Below, piece after piece: positions 33,501-36,302 of a DNA stretch of 64,000 nucleotides (position 1 is the stretch's first letter; the number at the start of each line of letters is the position of its first letter). Both the position numbers and the translations under genes were made by a program. The stretch comes from Sulfurimonas paralvinellae. GTDB taxonomy: Bacteria; Campylobacterota; Campylobacteria; Campylobacterales; Sulfurimonadaceae. Below the pieces are notes generated by a model. The model saw only the letters and a list, made by a program, of their open reading frames with translations. It searched no databases and had not been told where the DNA came from. The stretch spans positions 1 to 64,000 of the forward strand of contig NZ_CP041406.1 of the NCBI RefSeq assembly GCF_014905135.1, read 5' to 3'.

Positions 33501-36302
33501 ATGATTTCCCAAGACTCCATAGAGGCCTTAAAGGCGCGACTTGATATTGTTGATGTTGTAGGCTCGTATGTTGAGTTGAAAAAGGCGGGTGGTAACTTTA
33601 AAGCGCCGTGCCCTTTTCATGATGAAAAATCACCTTCATTTGTCGTGAGTCCGCAAAAACAGATATATCACTGTTTCGGCTGTTTACCTCCTTATCAAAA
33701 GATTATTACTCCAAACGGATACAAAGAGATTAAAGATATAAATGTAGGAGATAAAGTTTTTTCTGCTAATGGAGCACAAACAGAAGTGATTAAAACAGTG
33801 CATCATACAAGTGAGTTTGATATACTCTCTTTTATAACTTCACTGAGTGCAAAGCCGTCTTTTTTTACACAAAACCATGATATGTTAGTTGTAAAAAAAG
33901 AAACGGCTATTGCTAAACTACCTTATTTGCGGGTTGAAAAAGAGAGACCGTTAAAGTTCTATGGTCGTATTAAAAAAACTCGTCGAAAATATGATTTGGC
34001 TATTGAGAGAGAATTTGCAAATAATATAAAAACCGGAGATTATTTTTTATACCCAGTTCATAGAGAATTGCGTCATGATAAATATATAGATGTCTCAAGT
34101 TTGTGGAATAAAAATAGTTTTGGGCCAAATGTAGAAAAGATAGAGAGTATTAAAATATCTAAAGACTTTATGTGGTTAGCAGGCTTTTATGTGGCAGAAG
34201 GAAGTACCTATCGCGGTGGAATTAGGTTTTCTCTCTCAGCTACAGAAGAGGAATATGCCCAAAAGATCATAAGAGTTATTAAAAAGATTTTTAATAAAGA
34301 TGCTAAAATTTTCAGAAGAGAAAGTCGAAACACCACTTTAGAAGTGACAATTTCAAGTACAAATTTAGAACATATATTTAAGACTCTTTTCGGACAGGGA
34401 GCAGCTAATAAACATTATCCACATTGGTTTAATTATCTTGAAAAGCCTTTGAGAGAAGAACTTTTTAAAGGTTTGATGGATGATGATGGCTGCTATAGCA
34501 GACGGACATATGACACTGTAAGCGAAACGTTGGTTGACCAAGTTTTAGACTTGGCATTAAGTCTCAAGCGTATTCCAACCTGTCGTACTGCACAAGCCAT
34601 GAAAGACAAAAATGGCGTAAATCATAAAAGAAGTTATACGCTTTATTTTAAGCAAAGAGAATCAATAGAAGGTTTTTTTGAGTTTATTGACGGAATAGAG
34701 TACTTTTTTACAAAAGTAAAATCAATCACAAACGTTGGATATGAAGAGATAGTTTATGATATAACAGTTCAGGATAAAACACATACTTTTCTAGCTAATA
34801 ATTTTGCAGTAGGCAACTGTGGAGCCGGCGGTGATGCTGTAAAGTTTGTGATGGAATATGAAAAGCTCAACTACCCTGAAGCGCTTGAAAAACTCGCCCA
34901 AAGCTATAACTTCACACTGACATATACCGATAACAAACATAACAAACCGCGCACGCAGGTTATAGAAAAACTTAATGAATGGTATCAGTCACTGCTGACG
35001 CATAACCAAACGGCTATGAGCTATTTGCGTGAGCGCGGTATCTATGAGAGCAGTATTGAAAAATTCGGCATTGGTTATGCTCCGGCTTCGCATGAGACAC
35101 TGAACTTCATTAAGCGTGAACAGTTTCCTATGAAAGAGGCGATCGATGTCGGTGTTGTCGGCTATGAACCATCACGCAATCAGACCTATGCCCGCTTTAT
35201 TGAGCGCATAACCTTTCCTATCTACTCTGCCAACGGTACGGTTGTCGGTTTTGGAGGTAGAACGATTACCGGTCATCAGGCCAAATATGTCAACTCTCCG
35301 GAGACACCGCTTTTTAATAAGTCGCGGCTTTTATATGCTTACAACCTAGCGAAACAGGCACTTTATAAAAAGCAGGAAATCATCATTACCGAGGGTTATC
35401 TTGATGTTATTATGCTGCATCAGGCAGGGTTTGACAATGCCGTGGCGACACTCGGGACAGCGCTCACGCAGGAGCATCTGCCCTTGCTTCGAAAAGGAAC
35501 TCCACGCATTGTGATGGCCTATGACGGTGACAAAGCAGGACGTGCAGCGGCACTCAAAGCCTCAAAACTGCTCAGTGCAAGTGGGTTTAACGGGGGTGTG
35601 GTTGTTTTTGAGGGTGGGCTAGATCCGGCAGATATGGTAAAAGAGGGGAGAGTCGAAGAGCTTGGCAATATGTTTCGAGGAGCAAAGCCTTTTATAGAAT
35701 TTGTACTCGATGAGATACTCTCTCTTTATAATCTGCGTGATCCAAAAGAGAAAGAGTCCTGTATGGCAGAGGGTGTAGCCTATCTCAAAACACTCTCACC
35801 GATACTGCAAGAGGAGTACAGAACCTATCTTGCTTCAAGGCTCGGTGGACTGGGTGTTTCTCCTTCGCTTATAAAGCTTAACACCTCACAGCAGAACGTC
35901 GGGAAAAATGTACCTCTTGTCCAAAAGAATTCACATCGTGATATGTGGGAACTCTCTTTGGTAAAAACCGTTTTGGAGCATCCAAACTTCATAGACCATA
36001 TCTTGGATGTCATCGACCCTTCACTGCTGCAGTTTCATGCACGTGAGTTTTCGTTGGCATTGGCAGGAAAAAAAGATACACCGGAGTTGATGGAGATACT
36101 GGTGGATGAAGGCATAAAACCGCTAAAAGATATTGAAGCGCTCAATGCAGAGCTCATAACCTTTTTAACGAAATATTATGAGCGTGAACTCAAAAAAGTG
36201 AACTTTGCGACCAATATATCATTTGAAGAGAAGGCTTTTTATATTCGTAAATACCGTGACAAGATAAACAAACTCAAACGCGGTGAATTGGTAGGATTAT
36301 GA
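33501..36302 (+). CDS. dnaG: DNA primase DnaG, interrupted by an intein
   Basis: DnaG makes RNA primers at the fork. The 933-residue precursor contains a 379-residue intein (61-439); removal gives a normal 554-residue primase. The zinc ribbon has Cys37-His40 (CPFH) and Cys58; the fourth ligand is the Cys right after the intein (440), so splicing is required to build YHCFGCGAGGD. Next come the catalytic core with FGIGYAP and FGGRTI, the TOPRIM motifs ITEGYLDVI and AYDGDKAGRAA, and the C-terminal helicase-binding domain. Its stop overlaps the next start (ATGA). Expression of an essential gene depends on active splicing. Confidence 0.96.
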   Translation: MISQDSIEALKARLDIVDVVGSYVELKKAGGNFKAPCPFHDEKSPSFVVSPQKQIYHCFGCLPPYQKIITPNGYKEIKDINVGDKVFSANGAQTEVIKTVHHTSEFDILSFITSLSAKPSFFTQNHDMLVVKKETAIAKLPYLRVEKERPLKFYGRIKKTRRKYDLAIEREFANNIKTGDYFLYPVHRELRHDKYIDVSSLWNKNSFGPNVEKIESIKISKDFMWLAGFYVAEGSTYRGGIRFSLSATEEEYAQKIIRVIKKIFNKDAKIFRRESRNTTLEVTISSTNLEHIFKTLFGQGAANKHYPHWFNYLEKPLREELFKGLMDDDGCYSRRTYDTVSETLVDQVLDLALSLKRIPTCRTAQAMKDKNGVNHKRSYTLYFKQRESIEGFFEFIDGIEYFFTKVKSITNVGYEEIVYDITVQDKTHTFLANNFAVGNCGAGGDAVKFVMEYEKLNYPEALEKLAQSYNFTLTYTDNKHNKPRTQVIEKLNEWYQSLLTHNQTAMSYLRERGIYESSIEKFGIGYAPASHETLNFIKREQFPMKEAIDVGVVGYEPSRNQTYARFIERITFPIYSANGTVVGFGGRTITGHQAKYVNSPETPLFNKSRLLYAYNLAKQALYKKQEIIITEGYLDVIMLHQAGFDNAVATLGTALTQEHLPLLRKGTPRIVMAYDGDKAGRAAALKASKLLSASGFNGGVVVFEGGLDPADMVKEGRVEELGNMFRGAKPFIEFVLDEILSLYNLRDPKEKESCMAEGVAYLKTLSPILQEEYRTYLASRLGGLGVSPSLIKLNTSQQNVGKNVPLVQKNSHRDMWELSLVKTVLEHPNFIDHILDVIDPSLLQFHAREFSLALAGKKDTPELMEILVDEGIKPLKDIEALNAELITFLTKYYERELKKVNFATNISFEEKAFYIRKYRDKINKLKRGELVGL
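33681..34817 (+). mobile_element. Intein with LAGLIDADG homing endonuclease in DnaG
   Basis: In-frame 1137-base insertion encoding 379 residues, precursor 61-439. Block A starts at Cys61 (CLPPYQKIITPNGYKEI); block B has TQNH at 123-126; the endonuclease motifs are WLAGFYVAEGS at 225-235 and FKGLMDDDG at 322-330, both with their acidic residue; block F reads YDITVQDKTHTF and block G NFAVGN, followed by extein Cys440. Cys1, Asn at the end and Cys+1 mark a class 1 intein. The penultimate residue is Gly, not the usual His. The DNA is visibly more A+T-rich than the extein parts, a sign of transfer. Both activities look intact. Confidence 0.95.

Follow-up and report, generated by a model that had tools for sequence, protein, structure and literature searches.

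Results

An in-frame insert in the zinc knuckle of DnaG

The window analysed here is the whole 64,000-nucleotide stretch at positions 1 to 64,000 of the forward strand of contig NZ_CP041406.1 (assembly GCF_014905135.1) of Sulfurimonas paralvinellae, and all coordinates below refer to it. Its dnaG gene (33501..36302, forward strand, as are all features below) was delimited from the open reading frame and from Pfam and NCBIfam profiles. It encodes a 933 residue precursor composed of an N-extein, an intein and a C-extein. The N-extein (33501..33680, 60 residues), aligned to the solved DnaG zinc domains 1d0q and 2au3, holds the start of the zinc ribbon, with Cys37 and His40 within the sequence CPFH (33609..33620, placed by alignment to 1d0q) and Cys58 (33672..33674), the third zinc ligand, which is residue −3 relative to the intein junction. 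The intein (33681..34817, 379 residues, precursor residues 61 to 439) was recognised by profiles, alignment and predicted fold. It starts with Cys1 (33681..33683), which in the alignment occupies the fourth zinc-ligand position of the precursor, and contains the block B motif T-Q-N-H (33867..33878), two LAGLIDADG motifs found by Pfam, LAGFYVAEG (34176..34202) and FKGLMDDDG (34464..34490), and blocks F and G (34749..34817, the C-terminal region being matched by NCBIfam). These end in VGN, so that the penultimate residue, Gly378, is not the usual His, and Asn379 is the last. The motifs of blocks B, F and G and of the endonuclease were all placed by comparing key residues between copies. Next comes Cys440 (34818..34820), the +1 extein nucleophile and, after splicing, the fourth zinc ligand, as read from the junction and from intein-free alleles. 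It opens the C-extein (34818..36299, 494 residues), in which Pfam finds the rest of the zinc ribbon, DNAG_N, Toprim and a helicase-binding domain.

An earlier note on this DNA had proposed an in-frame LAGLIDADG intein of 379 residues lying between FG and CGAGGD, and had assigned two roles to Cys440, as the +1 residue and as the fourth zinc ligand of primase. The reading frame, the profiles, the alignment and the fold bear this out, as do the intein-free alleles described below, in which CFG and CG are directly joined. The note had missed the Gly that replaces the usual penultimate His in block G, and the placement of Cys1 at a zinc-ligand position. The reading frame contains no frameshift. With the C-extein as query, one dnaG match was found in the S. 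paralvinellae genome. Priming should therefore depend on splicing, as the note had suggested, and splicing should be essential. The GC content at third codon positions was 0.23 for the intein, versus 0.44 for the extein.

Profiles and predicted fold

Searched by itself, the insert was matched by three Pfam families, Intein_splicing (36.0 bits, cut-off 35.8), LAGLIDADG_3 (29.4 bits, cut-off 22.5) and Hom_end (25.1 bits, cut-off 21.1). The first fell below its cut-off when the whole reading frame (32.0 bits) or the whole genome (31.7 bits) was searched. NCBIfam intein_Cterm exceeded its cut-off, and TIGR01391 (dnaG) scored 430 bits. In the whole reading frame, the Zn_ribbon_DnaG match came in separate pieces, the best of which ended at residue 61; DNAG_N, Toprim and the helicase-binding domain followed. 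With its CHC2 zinc ribbon, DNAG_N and Toprim, the extein is a DnaG primase.

Precursor residues 1 to 539 were modelled with AlphaFold2 from an alignment of 22 sequences (mean pLDDT 82.9, pTM 0.70; 65 to 73 for residues 31 to 60, in the zinc ribbon). The intein part of this model matched the TliVMA intein (7qsu) with a Z score of 30.9 over 315 residues (2.6 Å), and other full-length, endonuclease-bearing inteins as well (2cw7, Z 30.4; PI-SceI, 1vde, Z 22.9); its HINT fold matched several mini-inteins with Z scores of about 16 to 17. TliVMA and PI-SceI, which are class 1 inteins with LAGLIDADG endonucleases, have the same splicing domain and two-motif endonuclease as the DnaG intein. They differ from it in host gene and site and in the penultimate residue, which is Gly in DnaG, and share 18 to 22% identity with it in the structural alignments listed.

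Splice-site residues

Key residues were compared in 27 distinct full-length copies, 25 bacterial and 2 viral. Two further DnaG intein copies from draft genomes (L038 and L040) are broken in frame, which may reflect sequencing errors, and were excluded. All 27 have Cys1, the T and H of the block B motif T-x-x-H, an Asp in block F and Asn as last residue. The window copy has the features of a class 1 intein, with Cys as first residue, FTQNHDM as block B, and N379 followed by C440. A penultimate His, common in such inteins without defining them, was present in both viral copies, whereas all 25 bacterial ones have Gly. Splicing without this His is on record in the titles of Chen 2000 and Sun 2005, as they stand in the reference list of PMC4031507. 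In block F, one bacterial copy (L029, which is also that of G506) has Gln and one viral copy (L043) Asn in place of His. Intein length varied only from 378 to 383 residues among the 25 bacterial copies.

Predicted zinc ligands before and after splicing

Precursor residues 1 to 61, that is the N-extein and Cys1, align without gap to residues 5-64 of 1d0q and 6-61 of 2au3, up to and including the cysteine of their CFGC motif. They contain a complete C-x2-H-x17-C-x2-C set (C37, H40, C58 and C61), whose first three members, together with the CFGC cysteine position, we take to be the zinc ligands established for DnaG. A Foldseek match of the precursor model to 1d0q (1.2 Å rmsd over 58 columns, 59% identity) was assigned to the N-extein on the grounds that no other stretch of the primase is so similar, the range of the match not being printed. 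Cys1 would thus stand in for Cys440 as the fourth ligand, and the precursor, its CHC2 set complete, may bind zinc. With Cys1, placed after C58-F-G, completing the ligand set, the earlier conclusion that no zinc ribbon can form before splicing is not warranted.

Sporadic presence at a single site

Within the genus, 15 of 135 genomes matched the insert. Fourteen of these relatives were full-length and lay at the same site of dnaG (64 to 100% identity), and the last, in G095, was a weak match in another protein. In the family, 22 of 228 genomes matched an alignment query (17 full-length, five weak and partial). Samples of the order and of the phylum gave matches in 10 of 396 genomes (4 full-length) and 4 of 397 (3 full-length), respectively. 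The insertion site was identical in all 18 full-length copies read. A contig collection was scanned with two short patterns drawn from the family intein alignment, a design that hardly covers other phyla, and 23 loci were obtained. All had Campylobacterota-type titles (Sulfurimonas, Arcobacter, Sulfurovum, Helicobacteraceae and others), and CFG preceded the intein at the same place in every one.

Absence of the insert was as clear. Of the 85 genus genomes that are 90% complete or more, 84 gave a dnaG match, and none was found in G021; 10 of the 84 matched the intein and 74 did not. Among 42 dnaG genes compared, 24 lacked the insert and joined CFG directly to CG. Homologues in which the insert belonged to the normal protein had been named beforehand as a possible refutation of the intein, and these genes speak for the intein instead. 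In one genus genome, G067, a second DnaG-like sequence (contig C18, 172746-174161) was matched by query residues 1-488 at 44% identity.

Movement between lineages

A quick extein tree was built with 41 rows, 17 with and 24 without the intein, the short extein of G094 being dropped; the intein-free rows came from the best 30 matches to the window C-extein and are not a random draw. Intein presence changes at least 8 times on this tree, a bare count obtained with several forks open and without a shuffled control, and presence or absence alone does not separate gain from loss. Very close relatives may differ in this respect: the extein proteins of G079 (with) and G081 (without) are 98.6% identical, and those of G018 (with) and G011 (without) 97.8%. 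Moreover, the window and G079 share 93% identity in the extein and only 66% in the intein, while the corresponding values for the window and G018 are 81% and 79%.

Extein and intein trees were then compared for the 15 genomes common to both (G094, G451 and G502 were dropped), with groups chosen after the first trees. The window grouped with G079 in the extein tree (support 100/100) and with G018 in the intein tree (100/98). Both opposite groupings were rejected (window with G018 in the extein tree, p-AU 6.7e-5; window with G079 in the intein tree, p-AU 0.0058), which means that the element moved between lineages. Taken together, the tree conflict, the identities, the close pairs and the third-position GC content show transfer between lineages.

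No co-conversion signal was found in the 30 bases on each side of the insert in the pairs G079/G081 and G018/G011: the value of the first pair was reached by 92 of 532 scanned windows, and that of the second by 502 of 533.

Endonuclease and target site

By profiles and key-residue comparison, both LAGLIDADG motifs of the window copy retain their acidic catalytic residues. The second one reads GLMDDDG, versus GL[ML]DGDG in 22 of the 24 other distinct bacterial copies (GLMDGDG in 21, GLLDGDG in 1), and this difference could mean that the window endonuclease is weakened. The two other bacterial copies have GLMDVDG (L033) and GLMVGNG (L035), and viral L043 has GVMDGNG. In L035 (5001-6143), a DnaG intein whose second motif is damaged and whose splicing ends are intact, the endonuclease looks inactive, and this copy is likely immobile.

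The dN/dS ratios (NG86), which are rough since many dS values exceed 1 and are saturated, ranged from 0.08 to 0.12 across the endonuclease (residues 155-330) for 11 of the 12 pairs, dS not being estimable in one, and from 0.08 to 0.28 for the N-terminal splicing part (residues 1-150) in 12 pairs. In the 24 alleles without the intein, the sequence about the insertion point is CAnTGtTTtGGn/TGnGg, and is probably so conserved because it codes for the zinc knuckle.

Viral relatives and inteins in other genes

Two viral contigs contain full-length relatives of the intein, 31 to 32% identical, each inserted just before the final Cys of a C-F-[GS]-C knuckle, the same cysteine as in bacterial DnaG. 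On the first (L043, 335 kb), Zn_ribbon_DnaG exceeds its cut-off. On the second (L042, 213 kb), the host is a 1536 residue protein with DNAG_N, Toprim and DnaB_C, whose zinc knuckle is recognised by motif and position only. This viral primase-helicase (L042:4785-9392) has two inteins, the first in the zinc knuckle of its primase part and the second at Walker A of its helicase part (GGKPSSGK / TT). The latter is 44 to 47% identical to DnaB inteins found at a like place in two other genus genomes; as it was compared with these two alone, this gives no more than a hint of viruses that carry both DnaG-type and DnaB-type inteins. The DnaB genes of G056 and G117 (L052 and L054, read by eye) have inteins at Walker A (AMGK / TS).

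A wider viral search revealed no additional contig with a full-length relative at the primase Cys. The first scan also gave a partial match, L044 (24%, in another reading frame, on a third viral contig); later ones returned both known contigs again, that of L043 alone, or that of L042 together with a partial match, L088 (25%), and a narrow DNA pattern search for the same site in viruses found nothing. Thirteen annotated phage records matched the window intein, in ribonucleotide reductase, DNA polymerase, portal or hypothetical proteins or with no annotation, and none of the 13 was annotated as a primase. Nor were any of the phage records, 3 and 1 respectively, that matched the two viral inteins with their flanks. 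One plasmid record matched in part. The reading frame of LR756511 reads by eye as a ribonucleotide reductase. Inteins were also seen, by eye, in phage terminase large subunit-like frames of genomes of the same family (L050, L051 and L053), and in ribonucleotide reductase-like frames from two genomes within the order (L018 and L091).

Stand-alone primase-type zinc ribbons occur in jumbo phages (PMC7824862), and mycobacteriophage inteins include one in a TOPRIM primase/topoisomerase (PMC5050341). That two viral primases are interrupted at the cysteine used in bacterial DnaG hints at why this site is chosen: a zinc-ligand codon can hardly drift and also supplies the +1 Cys.

Discussion

The segment 33681-34817 of the window is an intein, a further representative of a known type, mobile between related species. 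DnaG appears among intein hosts in a table of the review PMC5874633; the host there is likewise bacterial DnaG, and the entry names neither a species nor a site or sequence by which the sites could be compared. Our literature search found no description of the DnaG insertion site, a prior report being possible as the main intein surveys (Novikova 2014, 2016) lay outside it. It found none of inteins in Sulfurimonas either, and none joining intein splicing with a zinc-finger cysteine that is a zinc ligand. PMC2814812 mentions neither primase, DnaG, zinc nor DnaB.

We are highly confident that the only dnaG detected in this genome carries a mobile intein, which has a class 1 layout and includes a LAGLIDADG homing endonuclease. 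The intein's anatomy and predicted fold, the one dnaG match, its sporadic presence at one site and its transfer between lineages are the established grounds for this. After translation, Cys1 (residue 61) would attack the carbonyl of Gly60, the acyl chain would pass to Cys440, and the terminal Asn would cyclise without the help of a penultimate His; the exteins would then join into a 554 residue primase with Cys440 as fourth zinc ligand. The endonuclease, if active, would cut intein-free dnaG alleles at or near the CAnTGtTTtGGn/TGn zinc-knuckle codons and so spread the element, which would make homing the cause of the transfer. The target DNA would stay conserved as the coding sequence of the knuckle, whose cysteine also supplies the +1 nucleophile. 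Counting against this explanation are the atypical penultimate Gly, the GLMDDDG motif, the lack of a co-conversion signal and the sub-threshold Intein_splicing score in the whole reading frame.

That the insert might be a normal primase part in this group, as its reading frame and nearly constant length could suggest, is refuted by close relatives without it, and we give the idea practically no weight. It is missing from more than half of the dnaG genes compared and from most genus genomes with a dnaG match, and has the profiles and fold of an intein. A more serious alternative is that the endonuclease of the S. paralvinellae copy is already decaying, so that the element still splices and is no longer mobile. 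The unusual second motif of the window copy and the existence of a relative, L035, with a damaged motif and preserved splicing ends would fit such a state. However, both motifs retain their acidic residues, the endonuclease dN/dS is low (0.09 against G018) and the copy has no frameshift. We consider decay unlikely.

A further proposal, compatible with a mobile intein and adding to it, is that splicing is conditional: zinc loading, or a disulfide between Cys-3 and Cys1, would block the first step, and primase maturation would respond to zinc or redox state. Cys1 would complete the zinc site with C37, H40 and C58, and Cys440 would take its place after splicing. The cysteines of MoaA bind a metal centre. 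In the P. abyssi MoaA intein, PMC3922620 and PMC10663303 describe a Cys-3/Cys1 disulfide that blocks splicing, and Cys58, at −3 in DnaG, repeats this layout with an N-extein Cys beside Cys1 (PMC3922620). The DnaG intein differs from it by a host with a CHC2 zinc ribbon and by its penultimate Gly, and its own disulfide is hypothetical. Zinc bound to the initiating Cys118 inhibits splicing of the M. smegmatis DnaBi1 intein, according to PMC7360933; this too is a replication-protein intein whose splicing Cys can be held by zinc, although of class 3 and in a helicase, whereas the DnaG intein has a class 1 layout inside the zinc site of its host. The mycobacterial SufB intein adjoins conserved metal-chelating extein residues that influence it, as PMC8891592 reports. 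In addition to these precedents, the precursor ligands up to and including Cys1 align with DnaG zinc domains of known structure, and 1d0q is still matched by the precursor model. On the other hand, the zinc ribbon is the weaker region of that model, sporadic presence beside close intein-free relatives is more what one expects of a parasite than of a switch that the host needs, and a 2014 review (PMC4031507) saw no physiological conditional splicing and regarded inteins as likely parasites. As Cys-3 and the other ligands are kept by the primase anyway, their conservation is uninformative on control. This regulatory reading, drawn from the residue layout, is attractive, and we hold it to be rather improbable. 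Its fullest form seems to us slightly less probable still: Cys1 before and Cys440 after splicing would alternate as the fourth zinc ligand, and zinc or oxidation would hold DnaG unspliced and pause priming, as a metal checkpoint within a mobile element settled at one cysteine of bacterial DnaG and viral primases.

If the mobile intein splices as proposed, a group of environmental bacteria would need protein splicing for an essential primase, and a single residue position would serve both intein chemistry and zinc binding. The position of this intein offers a clean test of zinc or oxidation control over splicing, and the disputed idea of inteins as sensors would become directly testable with a native host protein.
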